In this document: piece by piece, positions 46,531 through 56,200 of the stretch
Layout: each line of letters starts with the position of its first letter
Numbering within the stretch: the first letter of the stretch is position 1
NCBI GenBank assembly: GCA_902781745.1
Contig: CACZKM010000004.1
Span: 1 to 56,200 of the forward strand
Reading direction: 5' to 3'
DNA: 56,200 nt
Source of the DNA: Oscillospiraceae bacterium
Lineage (GTDB): Bacteria > Bacillota > Clostridia > Oscillospirales > Oscillospiraceae
Made by a program: the position numbers and the translations under genes
Notes under the pieces: model-generated
The model's database searches: none
Seen by the model: the letters and a program-made list of their open reading frames with translations, nothing else
Told to the model about the DNA's origin: nothing

Positions 46531-46904
46531 AGAACAGACCCTGTATGCCGCACAAACGTCTTGCCTCCCCTTACCAAGGGTCGAACAGTCCGGGGGACTG
46601 TTCGATGCAATCCAGGCGCAGCCACCATAAACCATGGGGGACCGCCGAAGGCGGTGGAAGGGTGGGAACGTTGGGAAAGCACTATCGTAACGATAGAGCG
46701 GCCCGCTGCGTCTCCACCCCCCAGTCACGGCTTCGCCGTGCCAGCCCCCCTTGGCAAGGGGGGCCGAGAGGGTCGTGCTTTGATGGCAGTGCTGTGTAAT
46801 TATTTACACCCATGGCAAATGATTGCGTTGTTTGTCAGGAATATCCTCAAGACTCCAGTTTACTCTATTCAGAAGAAGTTAAAAATGAAAGGAAGTAACC
46901 CACC
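46531..46904. repeat. Repeat-rich intergenic region
   Basis: No gene in 374 bp. It contains CTTGCCTCCCCTTACCAAGG (46559-), GAACAGTCCGGGGGACTGTTC (46583-46603) as in the 28-kb tract, a CACGGCTTCGCCGTG palindrome (46726-46740) and CCCCCCTTGGCAAGGGGGGC (46745-46764). The last 100 bp, more AT-rich, probably hold the promoter of the Mrp gene. Confidence 0.65.
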
Positions 46905-48011: not shown

Positions 48012-48770
48012 ATGAAACTCATATCCTGGAACGTCAACGGCCTGCGGGCCTGCCTGAAGAAGGACTTCCTGGCCTCCTTCCGGACCTTGGACGCCGACGT
48101 CTTCTGTCTCCAGGAGACCAAGCTCCAGCACCACGCCGGAGACCTGGAGCTCGACCTGCCCGGCTACCACCAGTTCTGGAACAGCGCCGAGAAGAAGGGC
48201 TACTCCGGGGTGGCGGTGTTCACGAAAGCCGAGCCCCTGTCCGTGACCTACGGTCTGGGCGTCGAGGACCATGACCACGAGGGCCGGGTGATCACGGCGG
48301 AGTTCCCGGGCTTCTACCTGGTCTGCTGCTACACCCCCAACGCCCAGAACGAGCTGAAACGCCTGGACTACCGCATGACCTGGGAGGACGCCTTCCGGGC
48401 CTACTTACAGAAGCTGGACGCCGTCAAGCCGGTGATCCTCTGCGGGGACCTGAACGTGGCCCACCAGGAGATCGACCTGAAGAACCCAAAGACCAACCGC
48501 CGCAACGCCGGCTTCACCGACGAGGAGCGGGAGAAGATGACCGACCTGCTGGCCGCGGGCTTTGCCGACACCTACCGGACCCTCTACCCGGAGAAGGTGG
48601 AGTACTCCTGGTGGAGCTACCGGTTCAAGGCCCGGGAGAAGAACGCCGGGTGGCGCATCGACTATTTCATCGTGTCGAATCGGCTCATGGACCGGGTGGC
48701 GGACGCCAAGATCCACACCGAGGTCTTCGGCAGCGACCACTGTCCCGTGGAGCTGACCTTGCACGATTGA
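48012..48770 (+). CDS. xth: Exodeoxyribonuclease III (Xth family)
   Basis: 252 aa, start [20 protein letters not shown] after AAGGAG; the longer frame upstream runs through the repeats and is rejected. Catalytic residues lie in SWNVNGLRA (Asn), CLQETKLQ (metal Glu), CYTPNAQ (Tyr), [12 protein letters not shown] (Asp/Asn), WRIDYFIVS (Asp) and GSDHCPVEL (Asp-His pair). It repairs abasic sites and blocked 3' ends. Followed by a strong terminator. Confidence 0.94.
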
Positions 48771-48784
48771 TCGAACCAGAACAG

Positions 48785-48830
48785 AACGCGGACCCCAACG
48801 CTGAAAGCCAGCGCGGGGTCCGCGTTTTTG
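48785..48830 (+). terminator. Rho-independent terminator of the exonuclease III gene
   Basis: AACGCGGACCCC..CGCTG pairs with CCAGCG..GGGGTCCGCGTT and is followed by T3G. Confidence 0.85.
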
Positions 48831-48880
48831 TCTGTCTTTTTATACTATTTCTTGATAAAAACATTTCATATGTTTTTATT

Positions 48881-48973
48881 ACCATGGGCTATGCCCATGG
48901 CCGCCGCACGGATGTGCGGCGAAGAAAGCCGTTCGCCGTGGGCGATTAAAATGTTTTTTAAACATTTTAATCG
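48881..48973 (-). terminator. Row of hairpins below the minus-strand operon
   Basis: CCATGGGC/GCCCATGG, CCGCCGCAC/TGTGCGGCG and, AT-rich, CGATTAAAATGTTT (48943-48956) with its exact complement (48960-48973). The last can end transcription coming from the minus-strand operon; the row may also protect the 3' end. Confidence 0.55.
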
Positions 48974-48983
48974 ATAATTAGTA

Positions 48984-49565
48984 TTACCGATAAATCGTCT
49001 GGGTGGGGCTGGCTCCCTGGCCGGTGATCCCCTGGAGGTAAGTCATCACCGGGCCCATGGCCTCCAGGAACCGGGCCTGGGCCTTCTTCTGCCGCTCGAA
49101 GAACTTCTTCTTCACGGGAGGCGTCCACCGGCACCACACCGAGGGCAGCCCGTTCAGGGAGATCCACAGGCAGCTTCCGTCGTAGGTGGTGGTGGTGTGG
49201 CCGTCCTCGTCGGAGCTCTCGGAGTAGAGCAGGCACTCGGCGTACCCCGTCACCAGGTCCAGGGGAAGGAGAAGGGTGTCCTTCTCCGCCCGGAACAGGC
49301 GGTTGGTGTTGTCCGCCTGGAACTCCCCCTGGATGAAGTCCGGGGCAAAGACCCGTTCATACTCCGGCTGCCGGGCGTAGAGGCCCTGGATGCCCCGGAC
49401 CTCCCCCAGGGTCATGCTCTTGCTCCAGGCCCGGGAGAGGAATCGCAGGTTTTTCTGCAGAGGCTTCCGGCAGTCCGGGCAGATCACGCCGTCGGCCAGC
49501 TTGTTGTACTTCTTGCGGCTGTTTCCGCAGAGGGAACAATCCTGTGATGTGAAATGCAGTCCCAT
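48984..49565 (-). CDS. Zinc-ribbon protein, unknown
   Basis: 193 aa, start MGLHFTSQDCSLCGNSRKKY. A CSLC...CPDC ribbon occupies residues 10-32. A middle region follows (SMTLGEVRGIQGLYARQPEY) and a C-terminus ending in a helix (KKFFERQKKAQARFLEAMGP). Similar ribbons with a downstream SHOCT/DUF4428-like section occur in many Firmicutes, but I cannot assign a family. GGGAGGTG before the ATG; last gene of the minus-strand cluster, 54 nt after the peptidase. Confidence 0.7.
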   Translation of the reverse strand: MGLHFTSQDCSLCGNSRKKYNKLADGVICPDCRKPLQKNLRFLSRAWSKSMTLGEVRGIQGLYARQPEYERVFAPDFIQGEFQADNTNRLFRAEKDTLLLPLDLVTGYAECLLYSESSDEDGHTTTTYDGSCLWISLNGLPSVWCRWTPPVKKKFFERQKKAQARFLEAMGPVMTYLQGITGQGASPTQTIYR

Positions 49566-49619
49566 GGCGCACCTCCCGGCGTCGTGTCGGTCAGGCTTCG
49601 GCGTCTTTCTGTCTCAGAT

Positions 49620-50873
49620 TTACACTTCTTCCAATAACGCCCGGTATTCCTCGGCGGACCGCACCTGGCCCACCGCCGACAGGGACGCCCGGTCCCAGCG
49701 GAAGAGGTCCTTGGCCAGGTCCATCACGTCCTGGCGGGTGACGGCGTCGTAGGCCGCGATGATCTGCTCCGGGGTCAGGATCTCCCCGGTGAAGAGGAGG
49801 GACCGGCCGGCGTGGCTCATCCGGGCCTGGGTGGACTCCAGCCCCATGATTACGTTGGCCTTGGACTGCTCCCTGGCCCGCTCCAGCTCCTCGTCGGTGG
49901 GGCCCTGGGCCAAAAACTCCCGGATTACCTGGCAGATGGTCTGGATGGCCTGGGCCTCGGTCTCCTTATTCAGGGCGGTGTAGACGCAGAAGACCCCGGT
50001 GTCGGCGTGGCCCGCCCCGTAGGAGTAGACCGAGTAGCACAGCCCCTGCTGCTCCCGCACCCGCTGGAAGAGCCGGGAGGACACTCCCCCGCCCAGGATG
50101 GCGGAGAGGAGCTGGAGGGCGAACCGCCTGGGGGAGTCGTAGGTCAGGCCGGGGAAGGCCAGGGTCAGGTGGTTCTGCTCGATGGGCTTTTTCGTGGCCA
50201 CGAAGGCCGGGGTGTAGGCCGCCGGGGCGGTATCCGTCTTCTCCCCGGCGGGGAGGGCGGAAAACCGGCGGCGGAGGTCCGCCAGGACCTCTTCGGAAAA
50301 GCTCCCCGCCAGGGCCACCACGGTGTTGTCCGGCCGGTAGTGGCGGCGGTGGTAGTCCTTGAGGAAGGCCCCGGTCATGGGCGCCAGGGTCTCCTCCTTC
50401 CCCAGGATAGGCCGGGAGAGGGGGGAGCCGGCGTAGACGTGCTCGAAGAGCTTTTCCCCGCACAGGTCGTCGGGGGTGTCCTCGTACATATCGATCTCCT
50501 CCAGGATGACCCCCCGCTCGGTCTCCACGGCCTTCTGGTCAAATCGGGAGCAGAAGACCATGTCCCAGAGGATATCCAGGGCCTGGGCCAGGTGGTCGTC
50601 CAGGACGTGGGCGTAGAAGCAGGTGCACTCCTTGGTGGTGAAGGCGTTCATCTGGCCGCCGATGGCGTCGGTCTGCCGGGCGATGTCGGCGGCGGACCGG
50701 GTCTCGGTGCCCTTGAAGAGCATGTGCTCGATGAAGTGGGCCGCGCCGGACTCCCCGTCCTTCTCCTCCCTTGAGCCCCCGGCGATCCAGAAGCCCAGGG
50801 CGGCGGAGCGGACGGTGGGGATGGCCTCGGTGACCAGACGGACGCCGTTGGGGAGGGTTTCGATCTGTACCAT
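49620..50873 (-). CDS. M16-family zinc peptidase
   Basis: 417 aa. The inverted zinc motif HFIEHMLFKGT (HxxEH, near residue 50) and the downstream Glu (ETERGVILEEIDMYED) identify a pitrilysin/PqqL-like peptidase. The inactive C-terminal half has LTLAFPGLTYDSPRRFALQL and GGGVSSRLFQRVREQQGLCY. It corresponds to Bacillus YmxG/MlpA, a processing-peptidase-like cytosolic enzyme. Start at ATG 50873 after GAGGT; 28 nt after the MurE-kinase fusion. Confidence 0.92.
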   Translation of the reverse strand: MVQIETLPNGVRLVTEAIPTVRSAALGFWIAGGSREEKDGESGAAHFIEHMLFKGTETRSAADIARQTDAIGGQMNAFTTKECTCFYAHVLDDHLAQALDILWDMVFCSRFDQKAVETERGVILEEIDMYEDTPDDLCGEKLFEHVYAGSPLSRPILGKEETLAPMTGAFLKDYHRRHYRPDNTVVALAGSFSEEVLADLRRRFSALPAGEKTDTAPAAYTPAFVATKKPIEQNHLTLAFPGLTYDSPRRFALQLLSAILGGGVSSRLFQRVREQQGLCYSVYSYGAGHADTGVFCVYTALNKETEAQAIQTICQVIREFLAQGPTDEELERAREQSKANVIMGLESTQARMSHAGRSLLFTGEILTPEQIIAAYDAVTRQDVMDLAKDLFRWDRASLSAVGQVRSAEEYRALLEEV

Positions 50874-50901
50874 GGACGATACCTCGTTTCCGCGGGTAGG
50901 A

Positions 50902-53271
50902 TTACCGCTTTCTTTCAATGGTGGTCCCCAGGGACTTTTCGGAGATGGCCTCCAGGAGGATGGCGTGCTCCATGCGGCCGTCCAGGACGGTGACCGCCCC
51001 CACCCCGTGCTCCACGGCGTGGATGCAGTTGAGGGTCTTGGGGATCATGCCCCCGGCGATGAGCCCGCTGTCCATGAGCTCCCGGGCCCGGCTCACGTCC
51101 ATCCGGGCGATGCGGGTGGACTGGTTCTGGCTGTCCACCAGGATGCCGTCGGTGTCGGTGAGGAAGACCAGCTTGTCCGCCTTCACCGCCTCGGCCACCG
51201 CCCGGGCGGCGTCGTCGGCGTTGCAGTTGCAGGCCCCGCCGTCCTCTCCCCGGGAGATGGGGGAGACCACCGGCAGGAAGCCGGCGTCCAGCAGGGTGTG
51301 GAGGAGGGTGGGGTCCACCTTGGAGATGGCGCCCACCCGGCCCAGGGCGGGGTCCTTCTGCCGGGCGGTGATGAGGCCGCCGTCCCGGCCGGAGACGCCG
51401 CAGGCCCGAGCCCCGATCTTGTCCAGGGCGGCCACCACGGCCTTGTTGACCTTGGCGGAGAGGGCCATCTCGGCGGTGTCCAGCACCGCCTCGTCGGTGA
51501 CCCGGTAGCCCTTCTCGAACTGGGTGGGCACCCCCAGCCGGTCCAGGAGCGTGGTGATCTCCTTGCCGCCCCCGTGGACCAGCACCACCCGGACCCCCAC
51601 GGACTGGAGGGCGGCGGCGTCCTCCAGGATGGTGTCGGTAGAGGCGGTGTCCAAGGTGGCCCCGCCGTATTTGATGACGATGGTCTTCCCCTCGTACCGG
51701 CGCAGGAGGGGGAGGACGTCCAGCAGGGCCCGGACCTTGCTCATGCCGTCCATGCCGTGCTGTACATCGTATTCATGGAGATATTTTTTCGAGTACTCCA
51801 CGTCGGAGGGGGTGTCGACATACTCGATGCCCCGCTTCTGCCGGGTCTCGGCCCCCTTGCCGGTGAGAAGGATGACCGTGGGCTCCTCGCAGCCCATCAC
51901 CGCCAGGCGGACGGCCTCTCCCCGGTCGGGGACGATGGAGTAGTCGCAGTTTTCCGCCTCCACATACCGGGCGATGTCCCGGCAGATGTTCTCCACGGGC
52001 TCCTCCCCGGCGTCCTCCTCGGTGAGGATGACCAGGTCGGAGTACTTCCCGGAGATCTCCCCCAGGTCCTTCCGGCGGTCGTAGGCCTTATAGCCCGGGC
52101 AGCCGAAGACCGTGACGATCCGCCGGCCGGGATACTCCTCCTTGACGGACTTGAACAGGGTCTCGAAACTCATCCGGTTGTGGGCGTAGTCCACGATGAC
52201 GGAGACCTTCTCGTCGGCGTTGGCGTAGACCTCCATCCGCCCCGGCACCCTTGCCTTCATGAGGCCGGCGTAGGCGTACTGCTCGGGGATGCCCAGGGCC
52301 TCGCACACCGCCAGGGCGGCCAGGGCGTTCTGGACGTTGAAGAGGCCGGGCATGGTCAGCCGGAACTCCCGGCTGTACCGGGGGGTCTTCACCCGGAAGA
52401 GGATGTCGCCCCCCTGCTTCCGCACCTGGGAGCCGAAGATGGTGGCGGAGGGGTCCTTCTGGGAGAAGGTGATGATCCGGGGGCTGCTCTTCCGGGCGGC
52501 CTCCAGGACCCGGTCGGCGTGGTCGGAGTCCAGGTTGACGCAGGCGGCGGCGGCCTGGCGGAAGATCCGGAGCTTGGAGGAGAAGTAGTCCTCAAAGTCC
52601 GGGTGCTCGATGGGGGAGATGTGGTCCAGGCCGATGTTCAGGAAGACGGCGGCGGCGAACTCCACGTTCATCACCCGGTCATACTTCAGGGCCTGGCTGG
52701 AGACCTCCATGGTGAGGTAGCGCATTTTGCTCTCCACGGCGTGGGCGAAGTGGCGCTCTAAGTCCAGGGGCTCCGGGGTGGTGAGGTGGGACTCAAACTT
52801 CTCCACCCCGTCGAAGGTCTCGATGGAGGAGATGACGCCGCTGGGGGCCTGCTTCTTGGCGGCCAGGTATTCGTCAAAGATATACTTGAGGTAGTAGGTG
52901 GTGGAGGACTTGCCCTTGGTGCCGGTGATGCCCACCACCCCCAGCTTGGAGGAGGGGTGGTTGTAGTAGAAGTCCGCCAGCAGGGCCATGGCCGACCGCA
53001 CGTCGGTGACCTGGAGGCAGGGGGCGTCCACGTCGCCGTAGGGCTTCTCCGCCAGGTAGGCGAAGGCCCCGGCGCCCAGGGCGGCCCGGAGGAACTCCTC
53101 CTTGAAGTGGGCGCCCTTGCAGATGAACAGGGTGCCGGGCGCCACCTGCCGGGAGTCGCAGCTCACCAGGGCCACCTCCCGGGTCAGGGGCGCGCCGGCG
53201 GCGCTCACCAGCAGGCCCTCCTTCTGCAGCAATTGGATGTAATCCCCCAGGGGATACAGCGTCAGATTCAT
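50902..53271 (-). CDS. MurE-type Mur ligase fused to an acetylglutamate-kinase domain
   Basis: 789 aa in one uninterrupted frame. Residues 1 to about 495 are a MurE-class ligase: VSCDSRQVAPGTLFICKG, P-loop GITGTKGKSSTTYYL, EVSSQALKYDR, GLDHISPIEHPDFEDYF, GLFNVQNALAALAVCEA, VDYAHNRMSFETL and VFGCPGYKAYDRR. At the place of the DNPR motif that binds diaminopimelate in MurE it reads TEEDAGEEP, so the added amino acid cannot be assigned. From about 505 on follows a full ArgB-like kinase: KTIVIKYGGATLD, VVLVHGGGKEITTLLDRLG, GVSGRDGGLITA, CNCNADDAARAVAEAV and AGGMIPKTLNCIHAVEHGV. No ribosome site precedes the Met pair at the junction. AAAGGAAGTGG precedes the true ATG; the upstream frame is rejected. 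Third gene of the cluster. Confidence 0.85.
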   Translation of the reverse strand: MNLTLYPLGDYIQLLQKEGLLVSAAGAPLTREVALVSCDSRQVAPGTLFICKGAHFKEEFLRAALGAGAFAYLAEKPYGDVDAPCLQVTDVRSAMALLADFYYNHPSSKLGVVGITGTKGKSSTTYYLKYIFDEYLAAKKQAPSGVISSIETFDGVEKFESHLTTPEPLDLERHFAHAVESKMRYLTMEVSSQALKYDRVMNVEFAAAVFLNIGLDHISPIEHPDFEDYFSSKLRIFRQAAAACVNLDSDHADRVLEAARKSSPRIITFSQKDPSATIFGSQVRKQGGDILFRVKTPRYSREFRLTMPGLFNVQNALAALAVCEALGIPEQYAYAGLMKARVPGRMEVYANADEKVSVIVDYAHNRMSFETLFKSVKEEYPGRRIVTVFGCPGYKAYDRRKDLGEISGKYSDLVILTEEDAGEEPVENICRDIARYVEAENCDYSIVPDRGEAVRLAVMGCEEPTVILLTGKGAETRQKRGIEYVDTPSDVEYSKKYLHEYDVQHGMDGMSKVRALLDVLPLLRRYEGKTIVIKYGGATLDTASTDTILEDAAALQSVGVRVVLVHGGGKEITTLLDRLGVPTQFEKGYRVTDEAVLDTAEMALSAKVNKAVVAALDKIGARACGVSGRDGGLITARQKDPALGRVGAISKVDPTLLHTLLDAGFLPVVSPISRGEDGGACNCNADDAARAVAEAVKADKLVFLTDTDGILVDSQNQSTRIARMDVSRARELMDSGLIAGGMIPKTLNCIHAVEHGVGAVTVLDGRMEHAILLEAISEKSLGTTIERKR

Positions 53272-53300
53272 GGAACCACTTCCTTTCTGTCTCTCGTCCG

Positions 53301-54005
53301 TCATACGTTCCGCAGCCGCTTCCCGCAGCGCAGGATAGACTGCTCCGCCAGGATCTCCATGGCGTCGATATAGTAAGGGGGCAGGCCGTGGAGGGTCCGG
53401 TAGACCGACAGCTCCGTGCAGCCCAGGATGGCGCAGTCGCACCCGGCCTGCCGGAGGAAGGAATCGATCTCCCCGAACTTCTCCCGGGAGCCGGTCTCCC
53501 CCCGCTTGATCTCGTCGTAAATGATGGACATGACCACCTTCTGGAGGTCCGCCGGCGGCGTCACGGCGGTCAGTCCCGCCGCCTCCAGCTCCTTCTGGTA
53601 GATGCCCGTCTGAATGGTGCCGTCGGTGGCCAGGATGCCCACCGTCCGGCGGCCGGCGGCGGCGATGGCCCCCACGGTCTCCCGGATCATGTGGATGATG
53701 GGGACGGTAAGCTGGGCCTGGAGCCGGTCGGCAAAGTAGTGGGAGGTGTTGCAGGGGATGGCCAGCACGGTGCATCCCGCCCCCTCCAGGAGCTTCGCGT
53801 CGGCCAGCAGGGTCTCATAGACCGCCTCGGCGTCGCCTCCCAGAATGCCCGCGGTGCGGTCGGGGATCTTGGCGTCGCTCCAGATGAGGACCCGAAGGTG
53901 CTCCTGGTCGCTCTCGGCCTGGGTGCGGTCGATGATCCGCTGGTAAAAGGTGTTGGTGGCCTGGGGACCCATGCCGCCCAGCACGCCTAAAATGCCTTCC
54001 TTCAT
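53301..54005 (-). CDS. Aspartate/glutamate racemase family protein
   Basis: 234 aa, start MKEGILGVLGGMGPQATNTF. The two catalytic cysteines lie in LAIPCNTSHYF and AILGCTELSVYRT, as in cofactor-independent aspartate racemases; the opening GGMGPxAT is typical of the aspartate branch. It would make D-Asp (or D-Glu). It lies 10 nt after the ATP-grasp ligase and 29 nt before the MurE fusion, a pairing that I recall from enterococcal D-Asp cross-bridge genes. Confidence 0.9.
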   Translation of the reverse strand: MKEGILGVLGGMGPQATNTFYQRIIDRTQAESDQEHLRVLIWSDAKIPDRTAGILGGDAEAVYETLLADAKLLEGAGCTVLAIPCNTSHYFADRLQAQLTVPIIHMIRETVGAIAAAGRRTVGILATDGTIQTGIYQKELEAAGLTAVTPPADLQKVVMSIIYDEIKRGETGSREKFGEIDSFLRQAGCDCAILGCTELSVYRTLHGLPPYYIDAMEILAEQSILRCGKRLRNV

Positions 54006-54015
54006 GGGAATCAAC

Positions 54016-55224
54016 TCAATTCTTTTTCTCGTAATAGGTCTTATACTTCTTAAAGTGGCCCAAAAGGTTCTTTTTCATGCGCAGGGTCCGGCCGAAGGAC
54101 TTGTCCCCGCTGTAAAACAGGGGGGTGACCTCCTGACCGGCGGCGATGCGGGCCTTCATCTCCTTGTGGTAGTCGGAGACGATATAGTCGAAGGCCACCT
54201 TCCGGGGGACCACCCGCCACAGGCTGGGGTTGTCGGCGATGACGAAGGGGAGGTCCTTCCCCTCCACCCGGTCCTCCACCAGGAGCCTGGCGATGTTGTA
54301 CCCCGCGCCGGTGACATAGAAATTGCTCCGGCCCTGGCGGCAGTTGATCTCGAAGAACTGGTACTTCCCCGTCCGCTGGTCGTACTTGATGTCAAAGTTG
54401 GAGAAGCCCACGTAGCCGATCTCCTCCAGGAAGTCCTTCACCTTCTCGCACAGCTCCCGGTTGACCTCCGTGAGGATGACGGCGTGGTTGCCGATGCCGT
54501 GGGGGGTGTGCTCCTCCAGGAGGACGTGGCCCAGGCACATGAGCTTGACCTTGGCGTTGCGGTCGGAGTAGCAGGTGAGGACCCGCATGAAGCTGTCGTC
54601 CCCGGGGACGTAGTCCTGGATGATCATGGTGTCGGGGTACCCGGCGGCATAGACCTTGTCCAGGACCTCTTCCAGGTTGGCCCGGTCGGGGCAGGTGAAG
54701 ACCTTCTCGTTGCCCTCAAAGGGGTGCTCCCAGTAGGCCACGCCGTTGGCGGGCTTGCAGATATAGGGGGCGGGGAAGGGCAGCTCGAAGTCGTGGCCCA
54801 TCTCCTTGGAATACACAAAGGTCCCGGGGTGGTCGATGCCGTGCTTGTCGCACAGGGCGTAGAACTTCTCCTTGTTGATGAGGTCGTTGATCATCTCCCC
54901 GCTGACCGTGGCGGCGATGCAGTTGTCCGGGAAGCTGTCCTTGTTCTCGGCGGCCAGCTTCACATAGCTGTCGCCGCAGCCGATGACCAGGACGGTCTTT
55001 CCTTCAAACTCCTTCGCGGCGTTGGCCACGTTCTCCCGGAAGGTCGCCGGGTCCTCGTTCTTCGGGCACACCCGGTAGTCGATGATGGAGGACCCGTAGG
55101 CCGGGCCCGAGGCGAACTTTCCGTAGCAGACGGATTTGACGCCGTAGGCCTCATGGAAGGCCCGGGCGACGCTGTAGACGTTGATGTCCCCTCCGAAGAG
55201 GAGGGGCTGGAAACGCTGTTCCAT
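54016..55224 (-). CDS. ATP-grasp ligase, D-aspartate ligase-like
   Basis: 402 aa, start MEQRFQPLLFGGDINVYSVA after AAAGGAAGTG. The opening LLFGGDINVYSVARAFHEAY resembles the Asl D-aspartate:UDP-MurNAc-peptide ligases. ATP-grasp features follow: PYICKPANGVAYW (Lys for ATP), MIIQDYVPGDDSFMRVLTCY, FSNFDIKYDQRTGKYQFFEI then NCRQGRSN (Mg-binding acid/Asn pair). It is a carboxylate-amine ligase; the racemase gene next to it favours D-Asp as substrate, joined to the third residue of the stem peptide. First gene of the operon. Chemistry is inferred, not proven. Confidence 0.8.
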   Translation of the reverse strand: MEQRFQPLLFGGDINVYSVARAFHEAYGVKSVCYGKFASGPAYGSSIIDYRVCPKNEDPATFRENVANAAKEFEGKTVLVIGCGDSYVKLAAENKDSFPDNCIAATVSGEMINDLINKEKFYALCDKHGIDHPGTFVYSKEMGHDFELPFPAPYICKPANGVAYWEHPFEGNEKVFTCPDRANLEEVLDKVYAAGYPDTMIIQDYVPGDDSFMRVLTCYSDRNAKVKLMCLGHVLLEEHTPHGIGNHAVILTEVNRELCEKVKDFLEEIGYVGFSNFDIKYDQRTGKYQFFEINCRQGRSNFYVTGAGYNIARLLVEDRVEGKDLPFVIADNPSLWRVVPRKVAFDYIVSDYHKEMKARIAAGQEVTPLFYSGDKSFGRTLRMKKNLLGHFKKYKTYYEKKN

Positions 55225-55261
55225 GGTGAAAACACTTCCTTTGTATGGATACAGGGCCATG

Positions 55262-56200
55262 GCCCTGGGGGGGTGTGCTAACCTTACCGCCTGTAGTCCG
55301 ACCAGAACCATGGCCGGTTCGAGCGGCGCTGCGACCAGTAGTACCTACAGAGATACCGTTGAGTATTCATCGATCCTTGCTGGGCGGGTGGGTGTGTACT
55401 ATCCTTACCGCCTGTATGCCTACCGGTACGCACCAGATATAGGGTTGCCGCCCTACCGGGGGTGGCCTGCCCGGCCGGGGCCCGGCTTTTCTGGAAAAGC
55501 CGGGGGAAAAGCACCAGAGGGCTGCGGCCCTCTGGACTTCCGGGGACTCGTGGAGAATCCGCCGGTCGTCGCTTGACACACGCCATGTGATGGCTTGTCG
55601 TGACCGCCTGCAACTGTTTGGGGGTTTGGTTGTTGAGGTTTGGATTTTGTGGGGGTAGTTGTAGTACGTTCGGAGCCGCACAGCCTCTTGCCTCCCCTTG
55701 TCAAGGGGAGGGGGACCGCCGAAGGCGGTGGAAGGGTGGCTACGTTGCAGAGAGTGATATCGTTACGACAGGAGACATGACGTATTGCTTCTTATTACGC
55801 AGCGATAGAGCGGTACGCAACGTCTCCACCCCCCAGTCACGGCTTCGCCGTGCCAGCCCCCCTTGGCAAGGGGGGCCGAGAGGCTTAAGCAACTTCGCAA
55901 CAAAGTGCAATCTGTTGCTACTTTTACAAGAGGAGGCAAGAGGTAGTGCGTTACTTCAACAACAGCAACTATCCCCACAAAATCCAGTATTCATCAACCT
56001 AACTTCGATGCGTCGGAGACTGAAAGGACCCACACCACAACAGTACGGGTACAGCACCTAACGAAAGCAGAACACCTCACCGAAGCGAGCGCACATAAAA
56101 AAAGGGGGTCCAGGGGGGAACCCCCTGGCGTTTTCCCCCGGCTTTTTCGGAAAAAGCCGGGAAGAATCAAGGTTGCTTCGCTTTGGATTTGATCGAACAG
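55262..56200. repeat. Mosaic repeat tract, copy 2 (runs off the window)
   Basis: Same order and orientation as 28245-29300. It shows AGTAGTACCTACAGAGATAC (55338), GGGTTGCCGCCCTACCGGGG, GGGGACTCGTGGAG (55542), the GTTTGGTTGTTGAG block, the TTGGCAAGGGG palindromes (55690-55880) and the 3' block GTGCGTTACTTCAAC...GAAAGCAGAACACC (55949-56073). That block matches 29118-29240 closely. No gene is supported here. Confidence 0.75.

Follow-up and report, generated by a model that had tools for sequence, protein, structure and literature searches.

Why should a ligase of peptidoglycan synthesis and a kinase of arginine synthesis be made as a single protein, behind genes for an amino-acid racemase and an ATP-grasp ligase? 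The question is raised by an operon on the minus strand of contig CACZKM010000004.1 from an Oscillospiraceae bacterium (assembly GCA_902781745.1; 2.05 Mb in 95 contigs, 89% complete), of which positions 1 to 56,200 were analysed and are referred to here as the window. The answer that we favour, with about as much doubt as confidence and on the basis of homology, conserved residues and gene order, is that the operon provides a second branch of peptidoglycan-precursor synthesis beside the meso-diaminopimelate (meso-DAP) branch. This branch would use a non-DAP diamino acid, most likely ornithine, together with D-aspartate (D-Asp), and the kinase would act as an arginine-insensitive supply of ornithine.

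The fusion gene (50902..53271, minus strand) is one open frame encoding 789 residues. Its N-terminal half, a second-type MurE that we call MurE2 (residues 1 to ~505; 51757..53271), matches the MurE model TIGR01085 over residues 32–482 (309.6 bits, cut-off 257.3). The C-terminal half, an N-acetylglutamate kinase (NAGK) domain that includes an N-terminal helix stretch (residues 510–789; 50905..51744), matches TIGR00761 over residues 530–761 (235.6 bits, cut-off 151.3), and a PDB search with this half retrieved NAGK structures. A preliminary, sequence-only reading had described a complete Mur ligase and a complete kinase in one 789-codon frame with no ribosome site at the junction, a description that holds: by eye, no Shine-Dalgarno-like stretch stands in front of the in-frame ATGs at the junction, and AAAGGAAG is found 5' of the ATG in both the ligase and MurE genes. 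The fragmented assembly from which the window derives might point to an artefact of assembly or frameshift, an explanation that we regard as practically refuted since the same fusion recurs in 12 further genomes of the family as well as among named isolates, [Clostridium] viride DSM 6836 being one example. Near relatives of the window genome among the matches in the named collection are Evtepia and [Clostridium] viride.

Two-domain MurE–NAGK proteins are indeed widespread. With the MurE2 family split at ~47% identity (the next match has 37%), MurE2 is present in 32 of 150 genomes of the family. Of these, 13 carry the full fusion (window genome included), one, G128, retains a remnant of the kinase, and 18 lack the kinase altogether. 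A scan of named genomes, from which the best 80 of 341 related loci were kept, contains 67 full fusions, 10 loci with a shortened kinase and 3 that are cut by contig ends; full fusions also occur in families f170 and f134. Both the racemase and the ligase are nearby in 58 of the 80 loci, and 22 have a racemase of Alr type in the vicinity of the operon.

Neither half of the fusion is the sole enzyme of its kind in the cell, a possibility that was rejected because the genome also has a canonical DNPR-bearing MurE and an argB gene; MurE2 and the fused NAGK are thus paralogues. The DNPR-bearing MurE stands among division and cell-wall genes (neighbours named by eye), and argB belongs to a run read as argG-argH-argC-argJ-argB-argF. 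The product of this argB scores over the model cut-off and is 42% identical to the fused kinase domain, the ArgC match is below the TIGR01850 cut-off, and the remaining genes of the run were named by eye. Exactly two MurE genes (E up to 1e-60) were found in 27 of 28 MurE2 genomes; in the exception, G266 (81% complete), MurE2 is the only one found. The DNPR motif is present in all 27 canonical MurE copies fetched and in no MurE2 examined, a count that leaves out three neighbouring frames of ~100–127 bits. DAP epimerase was matched in 20 of the 28 genomes, the window genome included. Stand-alone argB occurs in 12 of the 13 fused family genomes, and all 19 genomes tested for ArgC gave a match, 6 of them over the model cut-off. 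The thirteenth fused genome, G037, was set aside as a candidate for the fused NAGK being the only one, as its contig ends inside argJ, where argB would follow. Since MurE2 and the fused NAGK stand beside a canonical MurE and argB, a main wall with plain meso-DAP is compatible with a non-standard stem peptide.

The residues K121, K233, R345, H364 and E475 of MurE2 are kept in all 107 aligned rows (97 distinct sequences), and the P-loop and catalytic lysines among them, K121 and K233, together with the curated score identify the domain as a MurE. It does not belong to the meso-DAP-adding type as defined by the DNPR motif, the site of which is occupied by TEEDAG (residues 417–422; 52006..52023) in an alignment with the MurE proteins of Enterococcus faecalis, L. 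curvatus and Collinsella and the DNPR-bearing MurE of the same genome. Variants at this site in the MurE2 alignment are TEED(S/P/A/C)GEE, TAEDPGEE and TEDDP(G/A), with an X in one row. The loss of DNPR had been noted from the sequence alone; the replacement is real but not odd in itself, as Gram-positive MurE enzymes of Lys type have a similar stretch (TTDDPA in E. faecalis, TTDDPG in L. curvatus). In Staphylococcus aureus MurE, Asp-406 and Glu-460 bind the lysine amine, and in Escherichia coli MurE, Arg-416 of the DNPR motif binds the DAP carboxylate (excerpts of PMC3829189). MurE2 has E419 and E475 at the two amine-holding places of the S. aureus enzyme, and G422 at the place of the DAP-carboxylate arginine. 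Of the 107 rows, 106 have E or D at the first position and the remaining one an X; E475 is kept in all 107, and G422 in 104. By their positions, these pocket residues argue against DAP as the amino acid added, and offer no choice among lysine, ornithine and diaminobutyrate.

The ligase gene (54016..55224, minus strand; 402 residues) and the racemase gene (53301..54005, minus strand; ATG at 54005, with a TTG at 54014 also possible) precede the fusion gene. The gaps are 10 nt between the ligase stop (54016) and the racemase ATG (54005), and 29 nt between the racemase stop (53301) and the MurE ATG (53271), in agreement with the first description. The racemase matches TIGR00035 (221.5 bits, cut-off 93.1) and, in the PDB, aspartate racemase 1jfl, and has two cysteines, by eye, in IPCNTS and LGCTEL. 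The cysteate racemase model CuyB was passed as well (218.2 bits, cut-off 190), so that "Asp/Glu racemase", as the gene was originally labelled, is a family label only. The ligase, labelled "Asl-like", aligns over 99–100% of its length with three lactobacillus proteins at 35–39% identity, two of them annotated as carboxylate-amine ligase. It has no Pfam match, one chance-level match in the PDB (E 0.03) and none in a PDB profile search. Based on this homology and on the racemase neighbour, which is adjacent here and in L. curvatus, one of the three lactobacilli, the protein is a probable member of the D-Asp ligases (Asl). Searches that included the window genome found it in 25 of 291 genomes of the class (E up to 1e-40) and in 12 of 299 genomes of the phylum (E up to 1e-20).

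Conserved residues in the fused kinase were counted on distinct sequences, since 10 genomes of the named scan are also in the other genome set. Nine active-site residues are conserved throughout the 69 distinct fused kinases of full length, as well as in 22 of 23 stand-alone ArgB proteins, and the domain classifies as a NAGK both by its TIGR00761 score and by its active-site Lys, Gly-Gly, Arg, Asn, Asp and Lys. The arginine-site motif of NAGK and N-acetylglutamate synthase (NAGS) has been given as E-(L/I)-(F/M)-(T/S)-x-x-G-x-G-T (section 7 of PMC4490483). Its counterpart in the fusion is the eroded stretch EAISEKSLGT (residues 774–783; 50923..50952). The first Gly of the motif is found in none of the 69 fused kinases compared with 23 of 23 stand-alone ArgB proteins, and the Glu in 23 of 69 compared with 23 of 23. 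By sequence, the domain thus falls outside the arginine-sensitive NAGKs: the helix stretch is present, and the first Gly of the motif is gone. The ratio of nonsynonymous to synonymous substitution rates (dN/dS) for the kinase is 0.05–0.25 in five of six full-fusion pairs, the sixth being not computable, values that indicate purifying selection on the fused kinase in these five.

Gene neighbourhoods in other lineages were also compared. In two genomes of family f48, one scanned with models and the other by similarity, the gene order is murF-ectB-femX-murJ-murE2-asl; in the scanned genome, EctB (diaminobutyrate transaminase) scores 600.5 bits against a cut-off of 552.2 and MurJ 383.9 against 235.6, FemX reaches 184.6 bits, below its cut-off of 500, and murF was named by eye. 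In locus L240, a gene with ornithine racemase as its only NCBIfam match lies 29 nt before the ligase of an asl-racemase-murE2 cluster. Such neighbours assign both MurE2 and the ligase to peptidoglycan synthesis and connect them with ornithine and diaminobutyrate. Outside the family, 32 genomes have the ligase, and the 28 neighbourhoods fetched show a MurE2-type gene nearby in 12, a canonical-group MurE with DNPD in 4 and no MurE in the stretch in 12. The ligase–racemase pair accompanied by a canonical-group DNPD MurE in family f175 (L247, L248, L249 and L258) is a separate pairing of MurE and ligase. Within the family, recJ-like and relA/spoT-like genes stand together beside the ligase in 15 of 29 related loci (e.g., L042, L044, L045, L047, L057, L058 and L063; one pair was tested with models), and such neighbours could tie the ligase to the stringent response.

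In the mechanism that we propose, MurE2 would add a diamino acid that lacks a side-chain carboxylate to UDP-MurNAc-L-Ala-D-Glu, in the fused lineages most likely L-ornithine. Going by homology and gene order, the racemase would make D-Asp, which the Asl-like ligase would attach to the side-chain amine. The fused NAGK, as a catalytically complete paralogue freed of arginine feedback, would keep ornithine flowing when plentiful arginine shuts ArgB, and ArgC and ArgJ of the normal pathway would complete ornithine synthesis. The non-standard stem peptide, the likeness to the known D-Asp gene pair and the kinase feeding ornithine, all advanced in the sequence-only reading, each have indirect support from these comparisons. 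A second MurE seems to be present in many spore-forming Clostridia, which suggests a second wall peptide of ornithine and a D-amino acid. In its broadest form, to which we give somewhat less than even weight, the proposal is that such cells make two chemically different stem peptides, either simultaneously or at different stages of life. One would contain meso-DAP, and the other ornithine (diaminobutyrate in related operons) with a D-amino acid, its ligase being joined to the committed, feedback-released step in the synthesis of that same amino acid. Speculatively, the two stem types might serve different walls, for example those of the vegetative cell and the spore cortex.

Several observations weigh against the ornithine proposal. 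The kinase is not needed for MurE2 and is therefore accessory, because the 18 of 32 MurE2 genomes of the family mentioned above do without it and because, in 11 relatives, it is shortened in frame with loss of catalytic residues while MurE is intact. The feedback Gly may have been lost just once, in an ancestor, since fused and stand-alone kinases are split by one branch (SH-aLRT 100 in a quick tree of 53 rows, 30 fused and 23 stand-alone). Among the 80 named-scan loci, the racemase alone is nearby in 8 and the ligase alone in 2, some of these being cut by contig ends, and 12 have neither, of which five (L100, L115, L117, L137 and L141) have at least 7.5 kb of upstream sequence. The ornithine racemase-like (Orr-like) protein of L240 reaches 351.6 bits, below the cut-off of 480. 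Furthermore, among curated ligase models that name a substrate other than DAP, the closest is NF010628, for L-lysine-adding MurE of lactic acid bacteria type, and MurE2 stays under its cut-off (333.8 bits, cut-off 536; 680.7 for the E. faecalis control). The authors of the S. aureus MurE study find that specificity is not determined by the DNPA stretch alone (PMC3829189). The proposed division between life stages finds no significant support in the distribution of the sporulation gene SpoIVA, which was matched in 29 of 32 MurE2-positive and 96 of 118 MurE2-negative family genomes (p = 0.29), or in 21 of 21 and 67 of 75 when genomes at least 90% complete are considered (p = 0.19). A link between MurE2 and sporulation is not significant on these counts, and SpoIVA is common in the family.

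The decayed kinases form two clades among the full fusions at an unresolved fork of the quick tree, so the decay probably represents one or two losses. The remnants keep the N-helix and the C-terminal region, and among six remnant pairs dN/dS is 0.065 and 0.12 for two close pairs of the 715-residue form and 0.42–0.50 for the other four. In G128, decay is not confined to the fusion. Its fused kinase is a remnant without catalytic residues, and the ArgB of its arg run (L295; G128:C1, 5406-6305) has lost five of nine active-site residues and kept the arginine-site motif. A further argC-argJ-argB set encodes an intact kinase, and has as neighbours an Orr-like racemase (below the cut-off) and an antiporter of NhaC type for which ArcD is a further match. 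Decay of both native NAGKs where another intact one exists fits, in this one genome, a plain NAGK role of the fused domain.

The alternative to which we give most weight, although we consider it unlikely, is that MurE2 adds L-lysine in the manner of enterococci and lactobacilli to give a Lys-D-Asp stem, with the kinase serving as a NAGK-hexamer scaffold or as an acetylglutamate sensor that regulates MurE2. The Lys-type appearance of the specificity stretch, the MurE2 genomes without kinase, and the retention of the N-helix and C-terminal region in dead remnants, with low dN/dS in the two close pairs, all agree with such a role. A mere scaffold would however not need the nine active-site residues that are kept in 69 distinct kinases, and the diamino-acid genes found near the operon elsewhere concern ornithine or diaminobutyrate rather than lysine. 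Somewhat less probable is a neutral fusion, in which chance joined MurE2 to an extra NAGK that serves ordinary arginine synthesis, with no functional link between the two. That stand-alone argB accompanies the fusion in 12 of 13 genomes makes the arginine pathway look ordinary, and the decay of both native NAGKs in G128, where another intact ArgB exists, is in line with it, whereas the retention of the fusion in many genera and in further families, together with the purifying selection on the kinase, speaks against it. The feedback motif is moreover eroded in every one of the 69 sequences, and a spare kinase serving arginine would gain little from this as long as ArgB keeps its feedback.

Improbable, in our view, is a repurposed kinase that phosphorylates a carboxylate of the muropeptide, or an operon that makes a peptide other than peptidoglycan, similar to cyanophycin. 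MurE substrates do hold an N-acylated glutamate that loosely resembles acetylglutamate, and cyanophycin synthetase also combines ATP-grasp and Mur-ligase domains. The active-site Arg and Asn are nevertheless invariant in the full-length fused kinases, and activation of a muropeptide carboxylate, which the sequence-only reading had offered as the second option, finds no support beside an ordinary NAGK active site in all distinct fused sequences. A cyanophycin-like product is countered by the joining of the operon with murF, murJ and femX homologues in another family, and by a second murE-like gene that starts within 0.8 kb downstream of the fusion in 10 of the 80 named-scan loci. This downstream gene (L094, L096, L101, L104, L105, L109, L110, L114, L121 and L128) is 31–36% identical to MurE2; in L114, it is the DNPR-type MurE of G145.

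The DNA around the operon was also scanned for regulatory elements. An Rfam scan of window positions 48500-56200 returned no riboswitch or T-box leader at the gathering threshold, with three weak matches below it, and a promoter scan gave no match. No regulatory RNA was found close to the operon in 16 related loci; farther off, L046 has two c-di-GMP riboswitches at ~8 kb, L244 a signal recognition particle (SRP) RNA at ~1.1 kb, and both L160 and L243 have tRNAs. Just before the ligase start are two 49-nt direct repeats (55260-55308 and 55381-55429; 76% identical, 121 nt apart) with no Rfam family there, which are possible leader or regulatory sites. A long intergenic repeat upstream of the asl operon (55798-55883 and 55710-55747) has a second copy ~9.1 kb off (46686-46771 and 46636-46673), with blocks of 86 and 38 nt that are 93–95% identical and nearly equally spaced. 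A putative M16 peptidase gene, named by eye, lies downstream of the fusion (49620-50873). Positions 1-22000 of the window differ in G+C content from the remaining contig (42–56% compared with 60–70%) and contain recombinase-like and other mobile-element-like frames (by eye); this part looks like an integrated element beside a chromosomal part.

If the proposed second branch exists, Clostridia such as Evtepia, Pseudoflavonifractor, Intestinimonas and [Clostridium] viride would have a second wall peptide. The host could handle its fragments differently, because the sections consulted of a review treat DAP, lysine and ornithine muropeptides apart (PMC11382707). The wall survey in the same source, as far as available, gives no data for Oscillibacter and several related genera, and assigns Faecalibacterium to the meso-DAP type. 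The fusion would also represent a Mur ligase physically linked to the pathway that makes its substrate, and a case in which feedback control was removed by erosion of an allosteric site after gene fusion. The link between kinase and wall is directly testable, because deposited strains exist with the kinase intact ([Clostridium] viride DSM 6836) and dead (Flintibacter muris DSM 110149). In the open-licence literature, we found no published description of a fusion of MurE with acetylglutamate kinase and no wall chemistry for fusion-bearing species. A second murE of Streptacidiphilus was rejected as an equivalent, as it is a 400-residue DUF1727 (MurT-like) protein according to the excerpt of PMC7601586.

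Among known systems, the aslA/racD operon of Lactococcus lactis and Aslfm of Enterococcus faecium (D-Asp ligase and aspartate racemase) share with the present operon an adjacent racemase and a related full-length ATP-grasp ligase, a likeness seen through comparison with lactobacillus proteins. Unlike in these systems, both genes here precede a second MurE fused to a kinase, and the host also has a DNPR MurE. The aslA/racD operon, and ornithine in the peptidoglycan of L. fermentum, are described in the part of PMC4155827 consulted. Lys-type MurE enzymes (PRK14022/NF010628) resemble MurE2 in the lack of DNPR, in a (D/E)DP(A/G)-like stretch and in having an acidic residue where the S. aureus enzyme has Glu-460. 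MurE2 differs in its score below the model cut-off, in being 37% identical to the E. faecalis enzyme and in being the only MurE found in just 1 of 28 genomes (G266).

Two-wall sporeformers offer another parallel. Lysinibacillus sphaericus has a vegetative wall with Lys-D-Asp and a spore cortex with DAP, for which our literature search gave no support. The MurE2 genomes share with such organisms two MurE types (27 of 28 genomes) and sporulation genes, SpoIVA being matched in 26 of 28, 25 of them over the cut-off, and the two without a match being 73% complete; stage-specific use of the two types is speculative here. To our knowledge, the MurE–kinase fusion has no counterpart among them. As for the arginine-sensitive hexameric NAGKs (ArgB, e.g., of Thermotoga and Pseudomonas), the fused kinase has their catalytic residues and the N-terminal helix stretch, and differs in its eroded feedback motif, its position behind a MurE and its separation from the 23 ArgB proteins in the tree. 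Finally, the MurE–MurF fusion of PRK11929 type, a model that the present fusion matches with 274.7 of 1023 bits, likewise joins a MurE to a second cytoplasmic enzyme. That enzyme is the next Mur ligase, whereas here MurE is paired with a kinase of amino-acid synthesis.

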